Shown here piece after piece: positions 35,454 to 48,392 of a stretch of 48,392 bases of DNA. The position numbers and the translations under genes are program-made. Below the pieces are notes generated by a model. It searched no databases. It was not told the DNA's origin and worked only from the letters and a program-made list of their open reading frames with translations. The DNA comes from an uncultured Bacteroidota bacterium (lineage in GTDB: Bacteria > Bacteroidota > Bacteroidia > Chitinophagales > Chitinophagaceae). Where the stretch lies: NCBI GenBank assembly GCA_903874055.1, contig CAIQQR010000024.1:1-48392 (forward strand), read 5' to 3'. The first letter of the stretch is position 1; each line of letters begins with the position of its first letter.

Positions 35454-35542
35454 AAAATTTAGTTTTAGAGTTATCTGATAAGATAAATATATGTCAATTA
35501 TTTTATATTAAAGACTAAATTAGCTTACAAAACAGCCCAACC

Positions 35543-35947
35543 ATGCATAATCGGACTATATTATTGGTAATTATTATCATTTTTTCTTGTATCCAGGCAA
35601 AATCACAAATGGTAAAAACAAAGGATGGTTTTGCTTTAGGGGATAGAAGCATATTTATGAAAAGTTGTATTGATGGCGCAAAAGAAAGTACAATCAATAT
35701 CAATGGCTTGCAATTTGAGGCCAAAAAATATTGTAGTTGTTTGTGTGATAATTTATTACCTACACTTACCATGAAAGAGATCACATATGCCTATCAAAAT
35801 AATAAGATGATTGATTTAATGATGAAGGGCAATAATTTTGAAATTTTAAAACAATGTGTACAGTCAAGTTCAAAAATAGATGATGACTTTGAATTCGGCA
35901 GTGGTGGAAATAAAGATTTACAGTTAAAAGTTGGCGTGAAATTATGA
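35543..35947 (+). CDS. Small exported Cys-containing protein, possibly truncated by an in-frame TGA
   Basis: A 134-residue protein with a signal peptide (MHNRTILLVIIIIFSCIQAK, then SQ). The mature part has FMKSCIDGAKES, KKYCSCLCDNLLPTLTMKEI and EILKQCVQSS, a Cys pattern I associate with a family of small secreted Bacteroidota proteins that usually continue with a second Cys-containing repeat; that memory is not checked. The reading stops at TGA 35945-35947. The same frame then stays open for 33 codons (VDEALKSQGQNKI...) to TAA 36047-36049. A single change TGA to TGC/TGT would put Cys there and extend the protein. Otherwise it is simply a short protein of unknown function. Confidence 0.62.
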   Translation: MHNRTILLVIIIIFSCIQAKSQMVKTKDGFALGDRSIFMKSCIDGAKESTININGLQFEAKKYCSCLCDNLLPTLTMKEITYAYQNNKMIDLMMKGNNFEILKQCVQSSSKIDDDFEFGSGGNKDLQLKVGVKL

Positions 35948-36053
35948 GTTGATGAAGCACTAAAAAGCCAAGGGCAAAATAAAATTTTGACTAGCATTTC
36001 AAAACCCTTAATTAATGTTTTTTCATTAGTTAATGATCCATTTTACTAACTAC

Positions 36054-36173
36054 TTGATTTTCAATCCATGTAAATGTTCCATTGCGCTATTTTGGAACAT
36101 ATTTGGTAGTAGATGTGGGAAGTTTATAATTGTATAGAGATAACTTGTAGATTCAAAATCAAAACCCAAACAA
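36054..36173 (+). promoter_or_regulatory. Duplicated promoter/operator module, copy 1
   Basis: The 120 nt directly before ATG 36174 align without gaps to 47020-47139 before ATG 47140 (80 of 120 identical by hand count). Conserved blocks at identical spacing are TTGATTTTCA (36054), TAAATGTTCC, TTTTGGAACAT (to 36100), TAATTGT, GATAACTTG (36139-36147) and TTCAAAATCAAAA (36152). ATGTTCC 36074-36080 and GGAACAT 36094-36100 form a perfect dyad with a 13-nt spacer, a likely binding site for a dimeric regulator. GATAACTTG or TAATTGT may serve as the -7 element; neither is a perfect TAnnTTTG. Confidence 0.7.
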
Positions 36174-36698
36174 ATGAAAAAAACAATTTTAGTAGCATTA
36201 ATGGCTACTACTTTATTTGCTTGTCAGCAAAATGTAACAAAGACTGAAACTGCAACAACAGTAGCAGCAACAGGCACAGTAACTACCACTGGACCAGAAG
36301 TAGATTTAATTAAAAAAGCAGTTGATGCATTTGCAAGTGGGGATTGGGCAGGCTATGCTGCATGTTATGCGGATACTGCAAAAGCATATCATAATATTTG
36401 GCCTTTAGCAGGGGATTCAACTTTAGCTTTAGGAATGCCTAAACTTATTGAAAGATTTAAAGTACAAAGAGCATTAATGGATGGTAATCCTACCGTTGAT
36501 GGAACTATTTATGAAGTTGTCACAATGCCAAATGGTAGTAAATATGGACATGCTTGGATTAGTTTTTCTTGGAAATCTAAGAAAGGGGGTACAGGTAAAA
36601 TGGCATTATTTAATTCATATGGTTTTAACAAAGACGGAAAAATTTCTTACGAGTGGCCAATTTATGATACAAAAGAAATTTCAAAACTTGGTCAATAA
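36174..36698 (+). CDS. NTF2/SnoaL-like lipoprotein
   Basis: A 174-residue predicted lipoprotein: MKKTILVALMATTLFAC with lipobox LFAC (Cys17), then a Thr/Ala-rich linker (residues ~18-42). Residues ~45-170 have the cone-shaped NTF2-like pattern: an opening helix VDLIKKAVDAFASGDWAGYA, then ACYADTAKAYHNIW, a VDGTIYEVVTMPNGSKYGHA strand pair, and final strands with GKISYEWPIYDT. NTF2-like exported proteins may bind small ligands or act as enzymes or inhibitors; no catalytic set can be assigned. It shares its 120-nt upstream region with the gene at 47140, so the two are probably co-regulated. A terminator follows. Confidence 0.75.
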   Translation: MKKTILVALMATTLFACQQNVTKTETATTVAATGTVTTTGPEVDLIKKAVDAFASGDWAGYAACYADTAKAYHNIWPLAGDSTLALGMPKLIERFKVQRALMDGNPTVDGTIYEVVTMPNGSKYGHAWISFSWKSKKGGTGKMALFNSYGFNKDGKISYEWPIYDTKEISKLGQ

Positions 36699-36729
36699 TT
36701 AATAGGTTTTAAGTTTGGATATAAAAATC

Positions 36730-36762
36730 AAGGGTCGCTTAGCAATAAGTGATCCTTTTTTT
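36730..36762 (+). terminator. Terminator after the NTF2-like gene
   Basis: AAGGGTCGCTTA (36730-36741) pairs with TAAGTGATCCTT (36746-36757) over 12 bp including two G-T pairs, with a GCAA tetraloop and a following T-run. It lies about 30 nt after the stop. Confidence 0.88.
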
Positions 36763-36841
36763 ATGGTTACATTACATAAAAAATGCTTTATTTGCATCAA
36801 TTTATTTTGCAATTATTCAATTATTTCAATCACTTTAATTT

Positions 36842-37462
36842 ATGCAATTAACAAGTTTACTGGGGGATGCGGATGCACTATTTAATGTCACTGAGCTTTC
36901 TGGGAGTTTGGGATTAATTGCGACTGTTATTTTAACTATCAATATGGTGCTTGGGATGATGTTAAGTACCTCTTTTAAAAAAACAAATTGGGGCATAAAA
37001 TTGCCTGCTAAAATAAAAGCAGTGGATGTAAATAATTTGCATAATTACACTGCCTATGTTGCTTTATTTTTTGTGTTTGCACATGTATTATTGATTCCGT
37101 TTGATGCAGCCAATAAATTCACTTTTTTAGATATACTTTGGCCTGTCAATGCCCCGCACCAATCTAATATTGTATTATTAGGAACCTTTTCGTTGTTGGC
37201 CTTATTAACGGTAATCATTACTACACAAAAAGGGGTTAAAAGAAAGTTGGGGTATGGTTTATGGAAAAAAATCCACCTAATTTCCTACCTAACCTGTATT
37301 TTATTTGTTGTTCACGGACTATTGATGGATCCTGAATTAAAAGACAGGCCCACAGATTGGGTTGATGCCGAAAAATTGTTGTCTGAAATCTGCGGATTTG
37401 TGCTATTGCTCGCTTTTTTTCTTAGGTATAAGTATTATATTTATAGCACTAGAAATAACTAA
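36842..37462 (+). CDS. Ferric-reductase-like heme-b membrane protein
   Basis: A 206-residue integral membrane protein with about five or six hydrophobic helices. Two pairs of His are spaced for two stacked b-hemes: His67 and His81 in NLHNYTAYVALFFVFAHVLL, and His145 and His158 in WKKIHLISYLTCILFVVHGL. This is the pattern of the ferric reductase-like transmembrane domain (FRE/NOX/MsrQ type). No FAD or NAD(P)H-binding domain is attached, so an electron donor must be separate, as for MsrQ; an MsrP partner is not in the window. The start ATG 36842 gives a short amphipathic N-terminus. It lies 72 nt upstream of the Asp-box genes, and a link to them is not shown. Confidence 0.78.
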   Translation: MQLTSLLGDADALFNVTELSGSLGLIATVILTINMVLGMMLSTSFKKTNWGIKLPAKIKAVDVNNLHNYTAYVALFFVFAHVLLIPFDAANKFTFLDILWPVNAPHQSNIVLLGTFSLLALLTVIITTQKGVKRKLGYGLWKKIHLISYLTCILFVVHGLLMDPELKDRPTDWVDAEKLLSEICGFVLLLAFFLRYKYYIYSTRNN

Positions 37463-37533
37463 ATCCTGCCCTAAACGTAGGGGTATTGTCATTTTTATAT
37501 TCTAGATATTTATTGTAATCTAACAGCGTAAAA

Positions 37534-40437
37534 ATGAAAAAGCACCTAAGGATTCTATTTGTCATTGCATTTAGCTTTATTCAATTAATGGGTATTGCCC
37601 AAATAAGTAGCAATCATTTTAATGCTATTCAATGGAGAATGATTGGCCCGCATAGAGGAGGTAGGACCGTTGGTGCTGTTGGTGTTCCTCAGGAGCCAAA
37701 TGTTTTTTATATAGGTGTAAATAACGGTGGTGTTTGGAAAACCACCGATTATGGAAGAACCTGGTTCCCTATTTTTGATGATCAATCTACGGGGTCCATT
37801 GGGGATGTTGCAGTGGCGCCCTCTAATCCAAATGTAGTTTATGTAGGAAGTGGGGAAGGTATTCAAAGACCCGATTTATCGGTGGGAAATGGGATGTATA
37901 AATCTACTGATGCAGGAAAAACATGGGCGCATTTAGGCTTAGAAGATGCACAGCAAATTGGAGGTCTTGCGGTAGATCCTAATGATGAAAACAGGGTTTT
38001 TGTTGCGGTTTTAGGTCATCCATATGGCCCAAATACTACAAGAGGGGTGTATCGTTCCTTAAATGGTGGTAAAACCTGGGAAAGAGTATTGTATAAAGAT
38101 GAAAATACTGGTGCCGTTCAAGTTGCCATTGATCCAAAAAATCCAAATATTATTTACGCTGATATGTGGGCGGGTCGCCAAGGTCCTTGGGAAAATGGAG
38201 CATGGAATGGACCGGAAAGTGGATTGTATAAATCAACAGATGGCGGAACAACATGGAAAAAATTAACTACAGGATTGCCAACGGTACAACAAGGTTTAGG
38301 AAGAATAGGATTTTGTATTGCACCATCGGATCCTAATCGTTTATATGCAACAGTGGATGCAGGAAATGAAGGGGGCATGTATCGTAGTGATGATGGGGGT
38401 GAAACTTGGAAGAGTATGAGTAATGACGGAAGATATTGGGGAAGAGGAAGTGATTTTGCAGAAGTAAAAGTAGACCCCAAAAACAAAGACATTGTATACA
38501 CCGCGAATGTGGTGGTTTGGAAATCGGAGGATGGTGGAAATACATGGAAAGATTTTAGAGGTGCTCCAGGTGGAGATGACTATCATCGCATTTGGATCAA
38601 TCCCAATAATTCAAATATCATTTTAATTGCAGCTGATCAAGGAGCCATCATTACCGTAAATAATGGAGCCACTTTTTCATCTTGGTACAACCAACCTACT
38701 GCACAATTTTATCATGTAAGCACAGATAATGCATTTCCTTATAATGTGTATGGTGGTCAACAAGAAAGTGGTTCAGTTGGCATTGCTTCAAGAGGGAATG
38801 ATGGACAAATTACTTATAGAGAATGGCATCCAGTTGGTGTGGAAGAGTATGGTTATGTTGCAGCCGATCCCTTAGATCCTAATATTATTTATGGTGGTAA
38901 AATAACTAAGTATGATAAACGAACTGGTCAGGTTCAAAATATTGCACCAGCTTCATTAAGAAAAGGCGATTATAGATTTGTAAGAACCGCGCCAGTTTTA
39001 TTTTCACCTATCGATCCAAAGACTTTATACTTTGCAGGAAATGTTTTATTTAAAACAAACAATGGTGGACATTCATGGCAGGAAATTAGTCCAGACTTAA
39101 CCAGACCTACTTGGGATATTCCTGCTAGCGTAGGTATTTATAAAGAGGAAGCTTCAAAAACAAAACGTCAAAGAGGGGTTATTTATACAGTAGCTCCGTC
39201 ACCAAAAGATATTAATACAATATGGTGTGGCACGGATGATGGATATATTCAATTAACTAGTGATGGTGGAAAGCATTGGAATAATGTTACACCAAGTGCT
39301 ATCACAGCATGGAGCAAGGTTTCCATAATGGAAGCAAGTCATTTTGATATAAAAACTGCATATGCTGCTGTAAATAGAATTCGCTGTGATGATATGAAGC
39401 CACATATTTACAAAACAAATGATGCAGGAGTGAGTTGGAAAGAAATTGTAAATGGATTGCCCGAAGATCCAATCAATTCAGTGAAAGAGGATCCATTAAC
39501 TAAAGGTTTATTGTTTGCAGGATCGGAAAGAGCAGTGTATGTTTCATTTGATGATGGCGATCATTGGCAAACATTGCAATTGAATATGCCACCTACATCT
39601 ATTCGTGATTTAGTAATTAAAGAGGATGATTTAGTAATAGGAACACATGGACGTTCATTTTGGATTTTAGATAATATTACTCCACTACGTCAATTGGCAA
39701 AGTCAACACAAAAGACAGAAGTAATTTTGTATAAGCCTCAAACAGCAATGCGCATAAGATGGAATACTTATACGGATTCTCCAGTACCACAGGAAGAACC
39801 AGCAGGACAAAATCCTCCAGATGGTGCTATGATTGATTATTACTTAAATGCAAACGCAAATGAGGTGGTTACCTTGCAAATTAAAGATGATAAAAATAAT
39901 ATTATCAGAACATTTCGTAGTGATGACAAACCTTATGAAATTCCTCCTGTAAATATTCCTTTGTATTGGATTCGTCCACAACAAATTTTATCTGCGACTG
40001 CAGGTTCACATCGTTTTTTATGGGACCTACATTATACACCCATAAAATCGGCACCTAATTATCCAATTGCTGCGGTGTACGGGAATACTGCACCTGAACC
40101 AACCTCTCCTTGGGTAATGCCTGGTAATTATACTGCGGTGTTAACTGTTAATGGAAAAATCTATACGCAATCATTAAAAGTAACTATGGACCCACGCGTA
40201 AAAACTTCCATTACTGATTTACAATTACAACACGACTATTCAATGACATGTTATAAAAATAGTATTATAGCAGCAAGCTACAAGGATCCAAAATTTGCAG
40301 CAGTGGTGGCAGATTATACTCGTTTGATGCAAATATTGCAGTCGAACGATATGACACCAACGCTACAAGCAATAAATGCAATCAATGCTACTAATGTCAA
40401 TTTTGAAAATCTTGAAAAAGCTAAAAAGCAAAATTAA
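37534..40437 (+). CDS. Secreted sortilin/VPS10-like Asp-box beta-propeller protein, paralog 1
   Basis: A 967-residue exported protein with a signal peptide (MKKHLRILFVIAFSFIQLMG, then IAQ). The bulk (residues ~30-700) consists of about ten Asp-box/BNR hairpins of form SxDxGxTW, for example STDAGKTW, STDGGTTW, SDDGGETW, SEDGGNTW and TSDGGKHW, which build one or two beta-propellers like the VPS10/sortilin fold. The opening WRMIGPHRGGRTVGAVGVP and the closing THGRSFWILD are shared with the two following paralogs. A C-terminal Ig-like domain follows (PPDGAMIDYYLNANANEVVT, FLWDLHYT), then a short helix. Such proteins are often labelled glycosyl hydrolases, but Asp-boxes are structural and no sialidase Arg triad is visible. 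The shortest of the three; it lacks the long C-terminal helical region of the others. Confidence 0.85.
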   Translation: MKKHLRILFVIAFSFIQLMGIAQISSNHFNAIQWRMIGPHRGGRTVGAVGVPQEPNVFYIGVNNGGVWKTTDYGRTWFPIFDDQSTGSIGDVAVAPSNPNVVYVGSGEGIQRPDLSVGNGMYKSTDAGKTWAHLGLEDAQQIGGLAVDPNDENRVFVAVLGHPYGPNTTRGVYRSLNGGKTWERVLYKDENTGAVQVAIDPKNPNIIYADMWAGRQGPWENGAWNGPESGLYKSTDGGTTWKKLTTGLPTVQQGLGRIGFCIAPSDPNRLYATVDAGNEGGMYRSDDGGETWKSMSNDGRYWGRGSDFAEVKVDPKNKDIVYTANVVVWKSEDGGNTWKDFRGAPGGDDYHRIWINPNNSNIILIAADQGAIITVNNGATFSSWYNQPTAQFYHVSTDNAFPYNVYGGQQESGSVGIASRGNDGQITYREWHPVGVEEYGYVAADPLDPNIIYGGKITKYDKRTGQVQNIAPASLRKGDYRFVRTAPVLFSPIDPKTLYFAGNVLFKTNNGGHSWQEISPDLTRPTWDIPASVGIYKEEASKTKRQRGVIYTVAPSPKDINTIWCGTDDGYIQLTSDGGKHWNNVTPSAITAWSKVSIMEASHFDIKTAYAAVNRIRCDDMKPHIYKTNDAGVSWKEIVNGLPEDPINSVKEDPLTKGLLFAGSERAVYVSFDDGDHWQTLQLNMPPTSIRDLVIKEDDLVIGTHGRSFWILDNITPLRQLAKSTQKTEVILYKPQTAMRIRWNTYTDSPVPQEEPAGQNPPDGAMIDYYLNANANEVVTLQIKDDKNNIIRTFRSDDKPYEIPPVNIPLYWIRPQQILSATAGSHRFLWDLHYTPIKSAPNYPIAAVYGNTAPEPTSPWVMPGNYTAVLTVNGKIYTQSLKVTMDPRVKTSITDLQLQHDYSMTCYKNSIIAASYKDPKFAAVVADYTRLMQILQSNDMTPTLQAINAINATNVNFENLEKAKKQN

Positions 40438-40480
40438 ATAATTTAAAAAAAAGTCAAAACGCAATAAATACAAATACAAA

Positions 40481-43400
40481 ATGATGAAACATAAAATCAT
40501 GCTGACGCCTTTGTTGTTGATAACAATGGTTTCATTTGCGCAAAAAAAGAACGGCAAGGTAAATCCAACGCCTATATCTATTAATTATGATTCTATTCTT
40601 TTTTCAAAAGTAAGTTATCGTGAAGTAGGCCCTTTTAGAGGAGGTCGAAGCTCGGCAGTTGCTGGTAGTTATAAAAATAAAAATGTATTTTATTTTGGTG
40701 CAGCAAATGGAGGCGTTTGGAAAACAATGGACGGGGGTAGTAATTGGAAAAATATTTCAGATAAATTTTTTGGAGGAAGTATTGGTGCTGTAACTGTTGC
40801 CCCTAGTGACGAAAGTGTATTGTATGTTGGAGAGGGTGAGCAAACCATGAGAGGTAATGTTACCGAAGGGTTAGGAGGAATTTGGCGTAGTGATGATGCA
40901 GGTAGAACCTGGAAAAATATTGGATTAAAAAATACAAGACATATTGTTAAAATAATTGTGCATCCAAGCAATCCTAATATTGCATGGGTAGCCGCAATGG
41001 GTCATTTATTTGGACCCAATGAGGATAGAGGTATTTATAAAACAATTGATGGGGGTAAAACTTGGAATAAAGTTTTATATGTGAATGAGCAAACAGGTTG
41101 TTCAGATATTATGATGGAACCTAATAATCCATCTACTTTATATGCAGGTACATGGCATGTAATAAGAACTCCATATAGCATGGAAAGTGGTGGCGTAGGA
41201 AGTGGGTTATGGAAAAGTACTGATGGTGGTGAAACATGGACTAATATTTCAACTAAAAAAGGATTGCCAACAGGCGTATGGGGTATTGCAACTATTACAG
41301 TTGCACCAAGCAACACCGATAAATTGTATGCAATGGTGGAAAATGCAAAAGGTGGTTTATTTGTAAGTAATGATGCTGGAGAAACTTGGGAATTGCAATC
41401 AAGTGATAACAATGTTCGTCAAAGAGCATGGTATTATTCAAGAGTATTTGTAGATCCTAAAAATGAAAATATTGTATACTGTCCTAACGTAAACTTTATG
41501 CGCAGTAAAGATGGTGGTAAAACCTTTCAAGCAGTAAATACTACACCACACGGCGATCATCATGATGTATGGATTGATCCGGAAGACCCTAGTAGAATGA
41601 TAGTTGCAGATGATGGTGGTGCACAAGTAAGTTTTGATGGGGCTGCAAATTTTAGTAGTTATTTTAATCAACCTACTGCACAATTTTATCGCGTATCCAC
41701 TGACAATTCTTTCCCTTATAGAATTTTAGGAGCACAACAAGACAATTCTACAGTAAGAATTAAAAGTAGATCTTATGGTGCAGCAATTACACAGGATGAT
41801 TGGCAACAAACAGCAGGTGCTGAGAGTGGTTATGTAGTTGCTAGTCCATTAAATCCGGATATTGTTTATGGTGGAAATTACGGCGGCTTTTTATCAAGAT
41901 TAGATCATAAGACAGGAGAGAATAGAGCCATCAATGTGTGGCCTGATAATCCAATGGGCGCAGGAGCTGATGTGCAAAAATTTCGTTTTCAGTGGAACTT
42001 TCCAATTTTTGTTTCTCCACACAATCCAAATCGTTTATATGCAGGAGGGAATCATTTATTCGTTACCGAAAATGATGGACAATCATGGGAAACTATTAGC
42101 CCAGATTTAACAACCAATGATAAATTAAAGCAAGCTTCAAGTGGAGGTCCAATTACAAAGGACAATACTTCGGTAGAATATTATTGTACCATTTTTACAG
42201 CAACAGAATCTGCTTTAGAAAAAGATTTATTATGGACTGGAAGTGATGATGGATTAGTAAATGTAAGTAAGGATGCAGGTAAACATTGGGAAAATGTAAC
42301 TCCAAAAGATGCACCAAAATGGATGATGTGGAATGCAATTGAAACAGATCCATTTGTTAAAGGAAAGGCAATTATTGTTGGTACTAGATATAAATTAGAT
42401 GATTACGCTCCTTATATATACGTAACAGAAAATTATGGTCAAAGCTGGAAGTTAATTACCAATGGAATTCCAAATGGTCATTTTGCGAGAGTGGTAAGAG
42501 CAGACAAAAAAAGAGCAGGCTTATTATATGCTGGTACTGAATATGGCATGTACATTAGTTATGATGATGGCGCAAATTGGAGAAAATTCCAATTAAATTT
42601 ACCAATTGTTCAAATTGCAGATTTAACCATTAAAGAAAATGATTTAATTGTAGCAACACATGGAAGAGCATTTTGGGTGATTGATGATTTAACACCTGTG
42701 CAAGCGTATGATAAAAATGTTGTGGACAAAAAATTATTTGTTTACAACGTGAATGATAGCTACCGAATGGAAGGTGGCGGTGGACGCAGAAGACGTAGTG
42801 CAAAGCCTGCAAATGCGGGAGCGAACCCACCTAACGGAGTGGTTATTAATTACTGGTTAAAAGAGGTTACTGATTCTTCAAAAGTGTCTATCAGCATTTA
42901 TGATAAAAACAATGCATTGATTAAAACATTTTCGAAAAATGCAAAAGAGGAAGGAAATAAATTAGAGTTTAATGCAGGAATGAATCAATTTGTTTGGGAT
43001 ATGATGTATCCTCCTGCTGAAAAAATTGATGGTTTAATTTTATGGAATGGCAATGTGGAAGGGCCAAAGGTTGCTCCAGGCAAATACACTGCTAAAATTA
43101 AATTTGATAATGATTCAGTGAATTTCTCGTTTGTAATTAAAGGGGATCCTAATTATAAAATGACTGAAAAGGACTATGATGATCAAGTTGGCATGTTGTT
43201 GAAAATTAGAGATAAGTTTAGTGATGTTCAAAAAGCAATTAAGCAAATTAGAGCAATCCGTACGCAGATTAATGATTTTACTTCAAGAGTTAATTTAAAA
43301 AACAATAAGGAAGTAAAACAAGCAGCAGATACCATCAATAAACAAATCACAGTAATTGAGGAAGCATTGTACCAAACCAAATCAAAAAGCGGTCAGGATG

Positions 43401-43642
43401 TATTAAATTTCCCAATTCGTTTGAATGATAAAATTGCGGGCTTATACGATGTTGCTGCAAGTGGGTACAATCCACCATCAAAGCAAGTAATTGAAACCTA
43501 TGCCGATTTATCTGCGCAGGCAGATACCCAATTAGCAAAGCTTAAGAAAATCTTGAGCGATGATTTAGTGGCATTCAATAAGCTGATTCATGAAAAGCAA
43601 TTGCCAATTATTGGATTAGTTAATGAAAAAGCAGAACAATAA
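40481..43642 (+). CDS. Secreted sortilin/VPS10-like Asp-box beta-propeller protein, paralog 2
   Basis: A 1053-residue paralog of its neighbours, 43 nt after paralog 1. Signal peptide: MMKHKIMLTPLLLITMVSFA (a second ATG at 40484 is equally possible). The propeller part begins YREVGPFRGGRSSAVAG and holds about ten Asp-boxes (SDDAGRTW, TIDGGKTW, STDGGETW, SNDAGETW, SKDAGKHW and others), ending with THGRAFWVIDDLTPVQA. A Gly/Arg stretch GGGGRRRRSAKPAN precedes the Ig-like domain (PPNGVVINYWL, QFVWDMMYP). The last ~180 residues are helical and probably coiled-coil (SDVQKAIKQIRAIRTQINDF, TQLAKLKKILSDDLVAFNKL). The binding target is unknown; a protein- or peptide-binding propeller is a reasonable guess from sortilin. 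Confidence 0.85.
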   Translation: MMKHKIMLTPLLLITMVSFAQKKNGKVNPTPISINYDSILFSKVSYREVGPFRGGRSSAVAGSYKNKNVFYFGAANGGVWKTMDGGSNWKNISDKFFGGSIGAVTVAPSDESVLYVGEGEQTMRGNVTEGLGGIWRSDDAGRTWKNIGLKNTRHIVKIIVHPSNPNIAWVAAMGHLFGPNEDRGIYKTIDGGKTWNKVLYVNEQTGCSDIMMEPNNPSTLYAGTWHVIRTPYSMESGGVGSGLWKSTDGGETWTNISTKKGLPTGVWGIATITVAPSNTDKLYAMVENAKGGLFVSNDAGETWELQSSDNNVRQRAWYYSRVFVDPKNENIVYCPNVNFMRSKDGGKTFQAVNTTPHGDHHDVWIDPEDPSRMIVADDGGAQVSFDGAANFSSYFNQPTAQFYRVSTDNSFPYRILGAQQDNSTVRIKSRSYGAAITQDDWQQTAGAESGYVVASPLNPDIVYGGNYGGFLSRLDHKTGENRAINVWPDNPMGAGADVQKFRFQWNFPIFVSPHNPNRLYAGGNHLFVTENDGQSWETISPDLTTNDKLKQASSGGPITKDNTSVEYYCTIFTATESALEKDLLWTGSDDGLVNVSKDAGKHWENVTPKDAPKWMMWNAIETDPFVKGKAIIVGTRYKLDDYAPYIYVTENYGQSWKLITNGIPNGHFARVVRADKKRAGLLYAGTEYGMYISYDDGANWRKFQLNLPIVQIADLTIKENDLIVATHGRAFWVIDDLTPVQAYDKNVVDKKLFVYNVNDSYRMEGGGGRRRRSAKPANAGANPPNGVVINYWLKEVTDSSKVSISIYDKNNALIKTFSKNAKEEGNKLEFNAGMNQFVWDMMYPPAEKIDGLILWNGNVEGPKVAPGKYTAKIKFDNDSVNFSFVIKGDPNYKMTEKDYDDQVGMLLKIRDKFSDVQKAIKQIRAIRTQINDFTSRVNLKNNKEVKQAADTINKQITVIEEALYQTKSKSGQDVLNFPIRLNDKIAGLYDVAASGYNPPSKQVIETYADLSAQADTQLAKLKKILSDDLVAFNKLIHEKQLPIIGLVNEKAEQ

Positions 43643-43670
43643 ACCATTTAAAATAAACAAATTTCCAACA

Positions 43671-46600
43671 ATGCGTAAAATTACCGTAAGCATGCTGTTA
43701 TTGAGTTTAACAGTATCTGTGTCTCCACTTGCTGCACAAAAAGCCAAAAAAGCTGCCGCAGTAGTGACTCCCACAGAAAGTAAAGTAGACATTAATAAAG
43801 TGTTTAAAAATTGGAAACCACGTAATGTGGGACCCGCTTCCATGAGTGGTCGTATCACTACAATTGATGCAGAGGTATCGAATCCAAATAATATCTGGAT
43901 AGGTGCGGCATCGGGTGGTGTTTGGAAAACAAATAATAGTGGTGTGAGCTGGACGCCTGTGTTTGATGAACAACCAATTTTAAATATTGGTGCATTGGCA
44001 ATACAACAATCTAATCCAAGTGTAGTTTGGGTAGGAACAGGGGAAGGGAATCCAAGAAACTCAGTAAGTATAGGAGAAGGCATTTATAAAACATTGGATG
44101 CAGGTAAAACATGGAAGCGCATGGGTTTGGAGCAAACCAGAAATATCCACAGAGTAATAATTGATCCAACCAATCCAAATACCGTATATGCAGGGGCTAT
44201 TGGTAATCCTTATGGCCAAAGCAAAAACAGAGGGGTGTACAAAACAACGGATGGTGGGGAAACTTGGAATCAAATTTTATATACCAATGACACTTCGGGT
44301 GTTGGTGATATGATTATGGATCCAAAAAATCCTAATAAATTATTTGTTGCTATGTGGCATCATTATCGTAATCCTTATCATTTGGAAAGTGGTGGAAAGG
44401 GTAGTGGAATTTACATGACCATTGATGGTGGTAAATCATTCACCAAATTGGGTAAAGAAAATGGATTGCCGGATGGTAACCTAGGTCGTGTAGGTATTAC
44501 TATTAGCAAGTCTAATCCAAATAGAGTGTATGCTTTAGTAGAATCTACAAAAAGTGGATTGTATAAAAGTGATGATGGTGGATATAATTTTACGTTAGTG
44601 AATGCACAAAAATCAATTGTTGATAATCGTCCGTTCTATTTCCAAGACATCATTTGCGATCCTTTAAATGAAAATACACTTTGGTATATTAGTCAAACGG
44701 TAGTTAAGAGTATTGATGCGGGAAAAAGTTTTGAAACGGTAATTCCTTATAGCGGTATTCACCCGGATCACCATGCGTTTTGGATTCATCCAACGGATAA
44801 TAAATTTATGTTAGATGGAAATGATGGTGGTATTGGATTAACAAGAGATGGTGGAAAAACATGGATGTTTGATGAAAAAATTCCTGTCGGTCAATTTTAT
44901 CATGTGAATGTGGACAATGAAATTCCATATCATATTATGGGTGGAATGCAAGACAATGGTTCATGGAGAGGACCAGCATATACCTTTATTCAAGGCGGCA
45001 TTAAAAACTTTTATTGGGATAATTTATGGGGTGGTGATGGCTTTGATGTAGTACCAGATGCCGAAGATGCTAATTGGGTATATGCAATGAGCCAAGGTGG
45101 TTCAGTAGGTAGATACAATACAGCAACTGGGGAAAGTTCATTTATTCAACCACCAGCACCAGATGCAAAAACTTTATTACGTTTTAACTGGAACGCTGCC
45201 ATTGCGCAAGACCCATTCGATAAAAAAACAGTTTATTTTGGTTCTCAGTTTTTACATAAAAGTGTAAATAAAGGAGCTGCTTGGAAAGTTATTTCTCCAG
45301 ATTTAACTACAAACGATAGTGCTCAAATTGATCAAAGAAATAATGGTGGATTAAGCTTAGATATCACAGGTGCAGAAAATCATTGTACGATTATCACCAT
45401 TGCTCCATCAAGTGTTCAAAAGGATTTAATTTACGTAGGTACTGACGATGGTAATGTGCAAGTAACAACCAATGGTGGCGCTACTTGGAGCAATATCACT
45501 GCCAATATCACAGGCTTGCCTAAGGGTGCATGGATTCCTCAAATAAGAACTTCTACTTATAATGCAAATGAAGTTTTTGTAGTAGCAAATAATTACAGAC
45601 AAGGTGATTTTGCTCCTTATATTTTTAGAACAACGGACGGTGGAAAAACTTGGACTAATATTTTAAGTACAGCAAAAGTTACAGGTTATGCATTGTCTAT
45701 TATACAAGATCCTACGGAGCCTAATTTATTTTTTGTAGGGACAGAGCAAGGCATGTATGTGAGCTTAGATAATGGGGATAGTTTCCAACAATGGAAAAAT
45801 GGTTATCCTTCTGTTTCAACTTATGATTTTGCAATTCAAGAAAGAGAAGCCGATTTAGCGATTGCAACTTTTGGTCGTGCTTTGTGGGTATTAGATGATA
45901 TTAAGCCATTGCGTAAGTTGGCACATAATAAAGGAGCTGCTTCCACATTTTTTGTTGCTGCTCCAAATGCAGTAACCAATGCAAGTTATAAAAATGCAAC
46001 TTATGAGTGGAGTACTTGGGGTATGTATGATGGAACCAATCGCCCAGCAGGATATCCTTTGACAGTTTATTTGGTGGACAGTCTTAAAAAAGTAAAAGTG
46101 CAAATTAAAGATGCGCAAGATTCTGTCATTAGAAATTTAACTTTCAAAGTGGATTCTGGATTTAACAGACAATATTGGGGCTTTGAACAAAAAGGAAGTC
46201 GTGGTGCTGGTATGCCTAAAACAGCTGCTGGCGGAGGTCGTAGAAGAATGGCCGAAGGCGCAAGCAATGAAGCTTCTGATGATGAAATGGAGTACAGAGG
46301 TCGCAGCGTATTAGCAGGAAAATTCAAGGTGGTAGTGACTGCTAATAAATTAAAAGACTCTATTTGGATTGAAGTTAAGAATGACGAAAGAAATGGCGAT
46401 AAAACAAGTATTGTTAAAAAGCAAGACGAATTATTGGCGAAGCTTCAACCAAGTGTAGACAAGTTTAATAATGTTTTAGATCAATTAGATGAAGTAGATT
46501 CTGTGTTAGCAGAATTAAAGGCAGATTGGAGATCTAAAAAAGATAAAGGCATCGATACTTTAAATAAAACACATAAATCGATTGTTGCAAAATCAAAAGC

Positions 46601-46883
46601 TTTACGTGAATATTTAATTGGGAAGAAGCAAGAAAAACAAGGATATGGAACAGTACCAGAAATCACACCGCTTTCTGTTATTCGTGATGCAAACATGTTA
46701 ATTACTGGCAAGAATACCATGCCAGGGGAGCAAGAGGAAGTAAAAGTGCAAGCAGCTATTACAGCAGTACAAGCAGCACTTGTTAAAGGAAATGAGTTCT
46801 TCCTTAAAGATTGGGCAAGTTTTAGAAAATTAGTCGAAACTACTCCAGTAGCAAAGTTTAAGGACTATGATACAATAAAGTAG
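43671..46883 (+). CDS. Secreted sortilin/VPS10-like Asp-box beta-propeller protein, paralog 3
   Basis: A 1070-residue third paralog. ATG 43671 is chosen because it directly precedes the signal peptide MRKITVSMLLLSLTVSVSPL (AAQ); a longer reading from ATG 43623 would overlap paralog 2 and bury it. The propeller opens WKPRNVGPASMSGRITTI and has about eleven Asp-boxes (TLDAGKTW, TTDGGETW, TIDGGKSF, SDDGGYNF, TRDGGKTW, TTNGGATW, TTDGGKTW), closing TFGRALWVLDDIKPLRKL. The Ig-like domain has a basic/acidic insert (GGGRRRMAEGASNE). A helical C-terminal region (KLQPSVDKFNNVLDQLDEVD onward) matches paralog 2. It is last in the cluster, followed by a strong terminator. The three may form one operon. 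Confidence 0.85.
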   Translation: MRKITVSMLLLSLTVSVSPLAAQKAKKAAAVVTPTESKVDINKVFKNWKPRNVGPASMSGRITTIDAEVSNPNNIWIGAASGGVWKTNNSGVSWTPVFDEQPILNIGALAIQQSNPSVVWVGTGEGNPRNSVSIGEGIYKTLDAGKTWKRMGLEQTRNIHRVIIDPTNPNTVYAGAIGNPYGQSKNRGVYKTTDGGETWNQILYTNDTSGVGDMIMDPKNPNKLFVAMWHHYRNPYHLESGGKGSGIYMTIDGGKSFTKLGKENGLPDGNLGRVGITISKSNPNRVYALVESTKSGLYKSDDGGYNFTLVNAQKSIVDNRPFYFQDIICDPLNENTLWYISQTVVKSIDAGKSFETVIPYSGIHPDHHAFWIHPTDNKFMLDGNDGGIGLTRDGGKTWMFDEKIPVGQFYHVNVDNEIPYHIMGGMQDNGSWRGPAYTFIQGGIKNFYWDNLWGGDGFDVVPDAEDANWVYAMSQGGSVGRYNTATGESSFIQPPAPDAKTLLRFNWNAAIAQDPFDKKTVYFGSQFLHKSVNKGAAWKVISPDLTTNDSAQIDQRNNGGLSLDITGAENHCTIITIAPSSVQKDLIYVGTDDGNVQVTTNGGATWSNITANITGLPKGAWIPQIRTSTYNANEVFVVANNYRQGDFAPYIFRTTDGGKTWTNILSTAKVTGYALSIIQDPTEPNLFFVGTEQGMYVSLDNGDSFQQWKNGYPSVSTYDFAIQEREADLAIATFGRALWVLDDIKPLRKLAHNKGAASTFFVAAPNAVTNASYKNATYEWSTWGMYDGTNRPAGYPLTVYLVDSLKKVKVQIKDAQDSVIRNLTFKVDSGFNRQYWGFEQKGSRGAGMPKTAAGGGRRRMAEGASNEASDDEMEYRGRSVLAGKFKVVVTANKLKDSIWIEVKNDERNGDKTSIVKKQDELLAKLQPSVDKFNNVLDQLDEVDSVLAELKADWRSKKDKGIDTLNKTHKSIVAKSKALREYLIGKKQEKQGYGTVPEITPLSVIRDANMLITGKNTMPGEQEEVKVQAAITAVQAALVKGNEFFLKDWASFRKLVETTPVAKFKDYDTIK

Positions 46884-46924
46884 TAGCTTTTTTTCAGTAA
46901 ATTATACTGGACTAGTTAAATAAT

Positions 46925-46974
46925 AAAAAGGGGCGATTAAAATGATTTACATTTTAATCGCCCCTTTTTTAATT
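46925..46974 (+). terminator. Very strong terminator closing the Asp-box cluster
   Basis: The arms 46925-46943 and 46951-46969 are perfectly complementary over 19 bp with a 7-nt loop (GATTTAC). The core is GGGGCGATTAAAAT facing ATTTTAATCGCCCC, followed by a T-run. The longest perfect hairpin in the window. Confidence 0.93.
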
Positions 46975-47019
46975 ATCGGGATCTATTTTCCATCAATTTT
47001 GAATCTTTTATATAACATG

Positions 47020-47139
47020 TTGATTTTCAGTGGGTATAAATGTTCCTTTTTGGGGTTTTGGAACATTTTTGTCATGTAATTAGAATACAAACTAATTGTT
47101 TGATGATAACTTGAACTTTCAAAATCAAAATTAAAATAC
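47020..47139 (+). promoter_or_regulatory. Duplicated promoter/operator module, copy 2
   Basis: An ungapped counterpart of 36054-36173, ending directly at ATG 47140. The dyad is ATGTTCC 47040-47046 and GGAACAT 47060-47066 with a 13-nt spacer of different sequence. GATAACTTG is at 47105-47113 and TTCAAAATCAAAA at 47118-47130. All blocks are at the same distance from the start codon as in copy 1. The terminator of the Asp-box cluster lies just upstream, so this region is an independent promoter. Confidence 0.7.
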
Positions 47140-47571
47140 ATGAAAAAGACATTCTTTCTTGCAATTATTGCATGGAAACTTTTTCAATCTGACTTATCCA
47201 AAATTACAAAGGGAGTAAGCGCTGCAGAAGGGGAGAGAATGTTAGGATTTGGTGATACAAGCAACGTGGTCTACCCAATTCAGGATGTTTATTATATAAT
47301 AGTTAAAGATGAAAATCTTTTTATGTCAAAATTTGAAGCATTTTGGAGTAAAAATACCCCTAAAAATGTGAGAGCATCTTTTGGAAGTATCAATACAAAA
47401 GGTGCAAACGGAGTAACTCATTATGTGGTGAGAAGTTATAAAAATTTCACAGATAAATTTAAAGATAATTATTTGAGCAGTATTAAAGGGTATGCAGAAT
47501 ATATCAATTCAATGAAAGATATCAGAACTATTCATACTTCAAGCACAAGAATTCTTTTAGGGAAATGGTAA
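47140..47571 (+). CDS. Small protein of unknown function with damaged-looking signal peptide
   Basis: I do not recognise the family. The 143-residue protein begins MKKTFFLAIIAW, like an export signal, but the hydrophobic core breaks after about seven residues at WKLFQSDLSKITKGV, so the signal peptide appears incomplete. The rest is alpha/beta with aromatic residues: NVVYPIQDVYYIIVKDENLF, FEAFWSKNTPKNVRASFGSI, NGVTHYVVRSYKNFTDKFKD. The phrase FWSKN recalls LWSKN in the next gene's product, and both may belong to one family. An internal deletion between the signal and the mature part would explain the N-terminus. It uses promoter module copy 2. The next gene starts 53 nt downstream. Confidence 0.55.
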   Translation: MKKTFFLAIIAWKLFQSDLSKITKGVSAAEGERMLGFGDTSNVVYPIQDVYYIIVKDENLFMSKFEAFWSKNTPKNVRASFGSINTKGANGVTHYVVRSYKNFTDKFKDNYLSSIKGYAEYINSMKDIRTIHTSSTRILLGKW

Positions 47572-47624
47572 ATTAAAGCTAGTCGCTGGTATTAATTCTT
47601 ATAAAATAAATAAAACCAAATCAA

Positions 47625-48392
47625 ATGAAAAAAACAATCTTTTTGTTATTCGTTTCTTTTTGTTCTTTGCAATTAATGGCACAGGATAAAGAGTATGTAG
47701 AGTTCTTTTTTGGCACTGTAAAAAATGCTAATGTCGAAAGTCACATTAAAAATGAGAAAGCAACTTTTGCTAAAATTCACGCAGACAGAATTAAAAGAGG
47801 GGAGATTACTGGTTGGGACATGTGGCAGCTAGTTAGCCCTGGAGATACCAAAGGGGAGACTACTTTTATGTATGCAACTGTGTACAAGGATATAGACATG
47901 GCAAATTTATGGAGTAAAAATTCGGCGGATTATATAAAAAGAGTGGCAGGTGATAATGTTGCTTCTTTCACAAAAACTGTGAATACTGTACTAGCAGATT
48001 ACACCACCATGAATGATATAATTACTGTAGTTAAAGCAGAGGATGCTGCAAATGGTAAATTTGACCAAAAAGGCTACAATGATAAAATAAAATATACGGT
48101 AATGAATGAGATGTTGGTAGATGGATACCGCGCAGGAGATTATGAAAAAATGGAAGGGGTTACATTTAAAGCATACAGAAAAGAAAATCCAAAATTACAA
48201 GGATGGGACTTACATAAAGTATTAAATGTATATGGTGAAAATAAAATAAATTATTATACTTCTGACTTCTATTCAAGTTTGAAAGATATTTATGATGCAA
48301 GAGAAAATACAACTGGTTATTCAGATGAAACTATCAAGTCGTTAAAAGAAATTGATAAGGTGAGAGTATTGAAAAATTCAAATATTTTTGAA
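47625..48392 (+). CDS. Exported protein with internal repeat, unknown function (3' end outside window)
   Basis: The frame is open from ATG 47625 through the window end (256 codons, no stop). It starts with a clear signal peptide, MKKTIFLLFVSFCSLQLMAQ. The mature part seems to hold two related units. The first has FAKIHADRIKRGEITGWDMW then QLVSPGDTKGETTFMYATVY. The second has FKAYRKENPKLQGWDLHKVL then NVYGENKINYYTSDFYSSLK. Both show a charged helix, GWD, then a beta pair, as expected from a duplicated small alpha/beta-barrel-like domain. No family name can be given. It may be co-transcribed with the gene at 47140 from promoter module copy 2. Confidence 0.75.
   Translation, partial: MKKTIFLLFVSFCSLQLMAQDKEYVEFFFGTVKNANVESHIKNEKATFAKIHADRIKRGEITGWDMWQLVSPGDTKGETTFMYATVYKDIDMANLWSKNSADYIKRVAGDNVASFTKTVNTVLADYTTMNDIITVVKAEDAANGKFDQKGYNDKIKYTVMNEMLVDGYRAGDYEKMEGVTFKAYRKENPKLQGWDLHKVLNVYGENKINYYTSDFYSSLKDIYDARENTTGYSDETIKSLKEIDKVRVLKNSNIFE

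Follow-up and report, generated by a model that had tools for sequence, protein, structure and literature searches.

A perfect dyad, ATGTTCC-N13-GGAACAT, stands ahead of two genes in the 48,392-nt stretch of DNA analysed here (hereafter the window), and its recurrence among related genomes indicates that it is very probably the operator of a regulon. We predict with good confidence that each dyad would be the operator of a seven-helix membrane regulator of the AraC/XylS type. The element is conserved, keeps a preferred distance to the -7 promoter box, co-occurs with the gene of this regulator and is frequently adjacent to it. A regulon under a dimeric DNA-binding factor, as the first-pass annotation of the window had proposed, gains support from the genus-wide data and from loci of other families, and a strong candidate for the factor can now be named.

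Two related promoters in one contig

Positions 36054-36173 and 47020-47139 of the window align without a gap, are identical at 80 of 120 bases and are each followed directly by an ATG. This recount agrees with the first-pass annotation, and the similarity is far above chance level: nearly 200,000 random ungapped pairs of 120-mers from the same window gave a mean of 32.9 identities (sd 5.2) and a maximum of 56. The exact dyad occurs at two places in the window, the predicted operators at 36074..36100 and 47040..47066 (neither assigned to a strand). The other shared blocks all lie on the plus strand. At the upstream end, the alignment of the pair reveals the TTGATTTTCA block (36054..36063 and 47020..47029), common to both window copies and the G033 homologue. 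In both copies, the GATAACTTG block contains the predicted -7 promoter box TAACTTG (36141..36147 and 47107..47113) at the 41st base after the dyad, with predicted transcription starts at about 36153 and 47119. Finally, TTCAAAATCAAAA (36152..36164 and 47118..47130), recognised by the alignment and by TTCAA at dyad+52, would hold the transcript start and the leader, A-rich in the first copy.

The conserved blocks had been read as protein-binding sites throughout. This stands for the dyad, and some of the other blocks are better explained as core promoter and leader. By eye, neither TTGATTTTCA nor TAATTGT recurs generally among the regulon promoters, and TTGATTTTCA was rejected as a second operator on account of its absence from most of them. 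Nor is TTGANNNTCA supported as a separate site, with 19 occurrences in the window against 12.2 expected, a count reached by 9 of 100 shuffles.

Ranked by similarity, the window pair comes 9th of 2080 promoter pairs, and each of the eight pairs above it consists of promoters of the same gene in different genomes. The two copies are thus closer than regulon membership alone explains, and a real duplication of the promoter, as first suggested, is likely. This unusual similarity could also suit a functionless remnant of such a duplication. We regard a mere remnant as contradicted and highly unlikely: in other genomes many unrelated genes have the element ahead of them, equally far from a -7 box, and among eight homologues only 0.52 of the spacer and 0.38 and 0.44 of the flanks are identical (the half-sites are identical by choice, since these homologues were picked for having the dyad).

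The gene behind the first operator (36174..36698, plus strand) encodes a lipoprotein of 174 aa, earlier described as NTF2-like, and the fold search bears this description out. Its AlphaFold model (pLDDT 78) matches IdmH, SnoaL2, KSI and limonene epoxide hydrolase (E 1e-6 to 1e-5), the first three being nearest at E about 1e-6, in line with a SnoaL / ketosteroid isomerase fold. The Pfam match is weak (SnoaL_2, 17.5 bits, below the cut-off of 27), and some related products at other loci exceed the SnoaL cut-off. Three genes in tandem between the two operators (37534-46883) encode proteins of 967-1086 aa that contain sortilin/BNR repeats.

Behind the second operator, the gene at 47140..47571 (plus strand) encodes a protein of 143 aa, initially taken for an unrelated small protein of unknown nature. 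It proves to be a shortened copy rather than an ordinary unknown: its residues 11-143 align at 65% identity with positions 96-227 of a secreted protein of 227 aa in genome G142, and about 85 codons, roughly residues 11-95 of the homologues, are missing. Nine genomes of the genus, G142 included, have this family at full or nearly full length. Its promoter is identical to that of gene 36174 at 80 of 120 positions, against 40 of 120 for the promoter of the G142 homologue, compared at an equal distance from the start codon, and five homologues in four other regulator-positive genomes (as defined below) have no dyad. The likeliest history of this locus combines copying of the promoter with a large deletion in the gene that follows. 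For the first codons, an internal deletion and a copied lipoprotein gene fit equally, the first 30 nt matching the G142 homologue and a lipoprotein gene of G129 at 24 of 30 positions each. The gene that follows (47625..48392, plus strand) encodes a secreted protein with no Pfam family above cut-off, runs off the contig and is possibly co-transcribed with 47140.

In the whole genome of the window (2,126,673 bases), a search with up to two mismatches returned 14 places: the window pair without mismatch, twelve at two mismatches and none at one. At zero or one mismatch the dyad is found at these two places only. The 12-base core TGTTCC-N13-GGAACA at one mismatch adds nine places (two for the reversed control), all within open frames of 382-968 codons, and the single N14 match with W at both ends lies inside an open frame of 596 codons. 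The two window dyads, unlike these ten places, fall outside long open frames. The predicted strict regulon of this genome is these two sites only.

Recurrence and promoter geometry in the genus

The exact dyad was found in eight of 60 genomes, the window's own included, all eight belonging to one genus, probably Sediminibacterium. It was absent from all 23 non-genus genomes of this set, and the reversed control gave 0 over the 60 genomes. By inspection the outer base is A or T, and the resulting pattern WTGTTCC-N13-GGAACAW matched 45 of the 147 genus genomes searched (128 matches against 7 for the reversed control, by hand tally). While the strict regulon of the window's own genome comprises two sites, relatives of about 2 Mb have up to seven dyads, many of them grouped tens of kilobases apart or less. 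A symmetrised logo, built from 49 dyads in 37 clusters, lengthens the motif to AATW-TGTTCC and shows A or T at positions 2-5 of the spacer, whose centre is mostly G or C; these extra positions played no part in choosing the sites.

An ORF starts 50-130 nt downstream of 74 of the 136 oriented sites, and 53 of these 74 sit 65-76 nt ahead of the start. Most products behind the sites open with a signal peptide or lipoprotein signal, as judged by eye, and the window lipoprotein falls into the largest BLAST cluster of these products (41 entries, in a comparison that includes the window's own copy). The fetched loci of regulator-positive genomes have 58 distinct sites, 56 of them intergenic. A start codon lies 55-95 nt away on one side of 30 of these sites, on both sides of 18 and on neither side of 10. 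Among the N13 matches examined in regulator-negative genomes, three of nine are intergenic and six lie inside reading frames.

Downstream of the dyad, 34 of 65 promoters have a TANNTT that starts at the 41st base, as do 17 of 42 when only the first member of each promoter cluster is counted; among the clusters the runner-up offsets are 40 (five cases) and 34 (four), most others having 0-2. The longer TANNTTG occurs at dyad+41 in 19 of the 65 promoters, the full TANNTTTG in only three, and TTCAA at dyad+52 in 13. No comparable peak was found in the 65 promoters for TTG in the -33 region.

The Bacteroidota sigma-A -7 box TAnnTTTG is reported to span -12 to -5, and its SM5 variant TAnnTTGY to be one base shorter (PMC6847099, PMC9723704). 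Combined with a -7 box at dyad+41, this published placement gives a predicted transcription start some 53 nt beyond the dyad, whose centre would lie near -66, a position as for an activator. Compared with the sigma-A promoters described for Flavobacterium, the promoters studied here are like them in the TA and TT(G) of the box and in the A-rich leader, and unlike them in their commoner full form, the SM5-like TAnnTTG, one base shorter than TAnnTTTG, and in an inconspicuous -33 motif (PMC9723704, PMC6847099). The distance to the promoter box is sharper than that to the start codon, from which we infer a protein touching RNA polymerase. The same predicted operator stands before several genes at a preferred fixed distance from the promoter, as would be expected of the regulon of a single factor. 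On another aspect, the regulon promoters have a weak A/T-rich recurrence at symmetrised positions -16, -27 and -36; this period of roughly 10 bp, counted outward from the dyad, might reflect bent DNA.

The perfect 7-bp stem of the dyad could also fold as RNA and act as a leader hairpin, riboswitch or terminator. The geometry contradicts such a role, which we consider extremely improbable. Since the predicted -7 box follows the dyad, the dyad would be outside the transcript that starts there; the 18 sites with a start codon on both sides fit poorly with a leader, the loop sequence is free except for its A/T content and centre, and Rfam has no match in 35500-48392.

A membrane-bound AraC-type protein and its link to the dyad

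The candidate regulator is a seven-helix AraC-type protein found by orthologue search outside the window, on another contig of the same genome (G000, contig C80, 4726-5904, minus strand). A genome was counted as regulator-positive when it had a match of at least 59% identity, which gave 40 genus genomes, some with fragments; paralogues reach 35% or less. The N13 dyad occurs in 35 of these 40 genomes (118 matches against 0 for the reversed control, by hand tally) and in 10 of the 107 regulator-negative ones (10 matches against 7). All 30 genomes with at least two N13 matches have the regulator. The five regulator-positive genomes free of N13 (G016, G025, G085, G121 and G134) each have an exact N14 match. 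With N14 allowed, a choice made only after these exceptions had appeared, the dyad is found in 40 of 40 positive and 13 of 107 negative genomes. Over the 147 genomes the Fisher p values, which ignore phylogeny, are 2e-19 for N13 and 5e-25 for N13 or N14. Across the genus N14 shows no excess (18 matches, reversed control 19); when split, it gives 14 matches against 1 for the control in regulator-positive genomes and 4 against 18 in negative ones. One genome, G009, has a good-looking promoter site without a regulator orthologue at 59% or more. This site precedes a gene of the lipoprotein/SnoaL cluster whose frame stops at the very end of its contig. Since the regulator lies just beyond such a gene in several genomes, its gene may be missing from the G009 assembly.

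The association extends to the window lipoprotein gene. Its homologues are present in 39 genus genomes, and among the 29 upstream regions read, 12 of the 15 from regulator-positive genomes contain a dyad and none of the 14 from negative genomes does (Fisher p 1e-5), the homologues of G024, G161 and G169 being the positive ones without a dyad. Six regulator-negative homologues, at 60-66% identity, are nearer to the window gene than most positive ones. Relatedness weakens these counts: in a gene tree of 28 sequences the window gene clusters with six homologues that have the dyad (support 89/81), and the tree offers only four independent pairs, of which about three go in the expected direction and none in the opposite one (p 0.25).

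In its own genome the regulator gives Pfam matches of 56.2 bits to HTH_18 (cut-off 33.6) and 42 bits to HTH_AraC (cut-off 26.6). Profile matches of the C-terminal domain include 3oou, 6swi, 3lsg, 2k9s and 3gbg (E 3e-5 to 1e-3), and by sequence or fold this HTH matches the domains of AraC, YesN, ToxT and Rns. The AlphaFold model (pLDDT 66) has long N-terminal helices, a low-confidence segment at 252-282 and a helical C-terminal domain; the best Foldseek hits of this model are AraC-type DNA-binding domains at E about 0.01, none reaching 0.001. Eleven overlapping hydrophobic windows cover residues 2-252 and were merged by eye to seven. Pfam recognises HTH families only and no receiver or kinase domain, with the membrane segments in the same chain, and neither Pfam nor NCBIfam has a family for the membrane part. 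Foldseek matches to animal heptahelical receptors are weak and non-significant. The predicted protein would thus be a membrane-bound one-component member of the AraC/XylS family.

A gene for this protein of about 398 aa lies near the sites in nine of 20 fetched stretches (9 of 12 genomes), and is lacking in the fetched islands of the three other genomes (G033, G131 and G142). In many genomes a dyad stands upstream of the regulator gene itself, with 43 to 112 nt or more between it and the start codon, and in one subgroup it overlaps the expected -33 region. At five loci (L092, L095, L097, L099 and L103) it lies 43-44 nt before the start with a -7-like box right behind, a placement that would suit autorepression rather than activation. 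In the window's own genome, the 400 nt upstream of the regulator gene have no dyad at up to three mismatches. Considering this lack, the position of the gene on another contig than the sites and its absence from three islands, adjacency and autoregulation are not general.

Some islands contain other genes of interest. Propeller-SpoIIE, HATPase and STAS genes form a partner-switching set with a dyad upstream in the regulator islands of L074 (4346-10481), where an adenylate cyclase gene is also present, and L078 (6530-10560), assigned by resemblance without a domain scan. Tandem membrane proteins of about 240-265 aa starting with MEVHHPHH or MEVHHH are encoded in L072 (1535-5260) and L075 (282-1738 and 15756-18033); some copies of this family have a dyad upstream, and in the one scanned no Pfam family passes its cut-off. 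The islands of G022 and G119 carry a GerE-type response regulator of the LuxR family beside a HisKA_2 kinase. That this response regulator is the factor seems to us barely credible and is contradicted by its distribution: it has no match at E 1e-20 in five genomes with at least two sites each (G014, G065, G066, G067 and G075), and its closest copies, at 72% identity or more, are found in four genomes only.

A broader alternative, which we hold to be rather unlikely, is that some other DNA-binding protein co-inherited with the seven-helix AraC gene binds the dyad, the AraC protein being a neighbour or a member of the regulon. Presence and adjacency do not prove binding, the islands include other regulatory genes (SpoIIE/Reg_prop, HATPase, STAS and cyclase), and in the window's own genome the AraC gene is not beside the sites. 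Against this stand loci from outside the genus, where both the link and the dyad spacings persist, in Cytophagaceae as well as in Flavobacterium, and where the four loci compared gene by gene (L182, L189, L192 and L203) have the AraC gene and secreted SnoaL/NTF2-like genes as their shared neighbours.

From an alignment of 15 orthologues, 72 loci with the regulator or its relatives were collected (578,211 bases, partly contigs of the genus survey). They come from Sediminibacterium, Chitinophagaceae, Bacteroidetes, Cytophagaceae (Aquirufa and Sandaracinomonas included) and Flavobacterium. Inverted TGTTCC/GGAACA pairs number 51 at N13 and 22 at N14 in these loci, against zero at the ten spacings N8-12 and N15-19; everted pairs number one and direct pairs two. 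The other-family subset comprises the 34 loci titled Cytophagaceae, Cytophagales, Spirosoma, Aquirufa, Sandaracinomonas or Flavobacterium, from 25 assemblies by accession. An exact N13 or N14 dyad lies within 2 kb in 21 of these 34 loci (19 of 25 assemblies), eight at N13, 13 at N14 and none at other spacings; the remaining 13 loci have no exact dyad within 2 kb. These sites stand ahead of the regulator gene or of secreted proteins, some with a SnoaL match at the loci scanned with Pfam. Among 22 oriented other-family N14 promoters, TANNTT begins at +40, +41 and +42 in four, seven and four places, and among the N13 promoters at +41 in three of 15.

The Flavobacterium regulators of L202 and L203 (49% identity) have an N13 dyad at -117. 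In L203, the regulator gene diverges from a row of genes for five secreted proteins, which include a full SnoaL match, and one N13 dyad lies in the gap between gene and row. Two regulator relatives per genome, one with an upstream N13 dyad, are found in Aquirufa antheringensis (L182 and L189) and in the pair L186 and L175; the neighbour of the second relative of A. antheringensis has an N14 site ahead. Spacer length might separate the targets of such paired regulators.

The proposed switch and its known relatives

The preferred reading remains the AraC-type protein itself as the factor. It would be a one-component AraC/XylS-type regulator with about seven N-terminal membrane helices and a C-terminal AraC-type HTH, whose dimer, held at the membrane, would present two DNA-binding domains, one for each TGTTCC half-site. 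The half-site centres are 19-20 bp apart, about two turns, which would place both domains on the same face of the helix. Centred near -66, the dimer would touch RNA polymerase on promoters that have a Bacteroidota -7 box but lack a clear -33 box, and would switch on secreted NTF2/SnoaL-like lipoproteins together with a few other secreted proteins. In this scheme we infer that the protein binds the dyad directly and as a dimer, that it activates rather than represses, and that it senses through its membrane domain.

AraC/XylS regulators such as AraC, RhaS/RhaR, MelR, ToxT and Rns resemble the candidate in having a C-terminal HTH of about 100 residues and sites ahead of the core promoter, a position typical of activators. 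The classic sensor of the family is a soluble cupin-like domain, and many members use direct repeats, inverted sites as in RhaS/RhaR being less usual. The candidate regulator differs in both respects: its sensor would consist of about seven membrane helices without a Pfam family instead of a soluble domain, and its site is a perfect inverted repeat with half-sites of 6-7 bp, 13 or 14 nt apart.

Membrane-bound relatives are known. In Saccharophagus degradans, 16 of 31 AraC-type regulators are described as membrane-bound, and several membrane-bound transcription factors lie near genes of cellulose-degrading enzymes (PMC2386152). These proteins likewise join an AraC-type HTH to membrane segments; the part of the source available to us proposes polysaccharide sensing, names no operator and gives an example with two membrane segments, unlike the approximately seven segments and the NTF2/SnoaL-like lipoprotein targets of the present system (PMC2386152). 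Our search of the open-access literature found no description of this operator or regulon. The type of control, an AraC-type one-component system, is known, and the predicted pair of regulator and operator would be new within that literature.

Going further, and more tentatively, with less than even confidence, the fusion of a heptahelical receptor with an AraC domain may be a complete switch from sensor to promoter for a signal from outside or within the membrane. Such a switch would grip dispersed two-turn operators while held at the membrane and control an expanding set of secreted lipoproteins of the NTF2/SnoaL fold, possible binders of the same ligand. Chitinophagales, Cytophagales and Flavobacteriales would then have a sensing-and-scavenging module in common.

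A motif of unknown meaning is now tied to one gene family, so that what a membrane AraC regulator does can be tested directly. The operator and the promoter geometry are defined well enough for targets to be predicted from sequence only. The bacteria concerned are mostly metagenome-assembled records, with at least one named strain, Aquirufa antheringensis 30S-ANTBAC. The findings also suggest that the secreted NTF2/SnoaL-like lipoproteins share a role.
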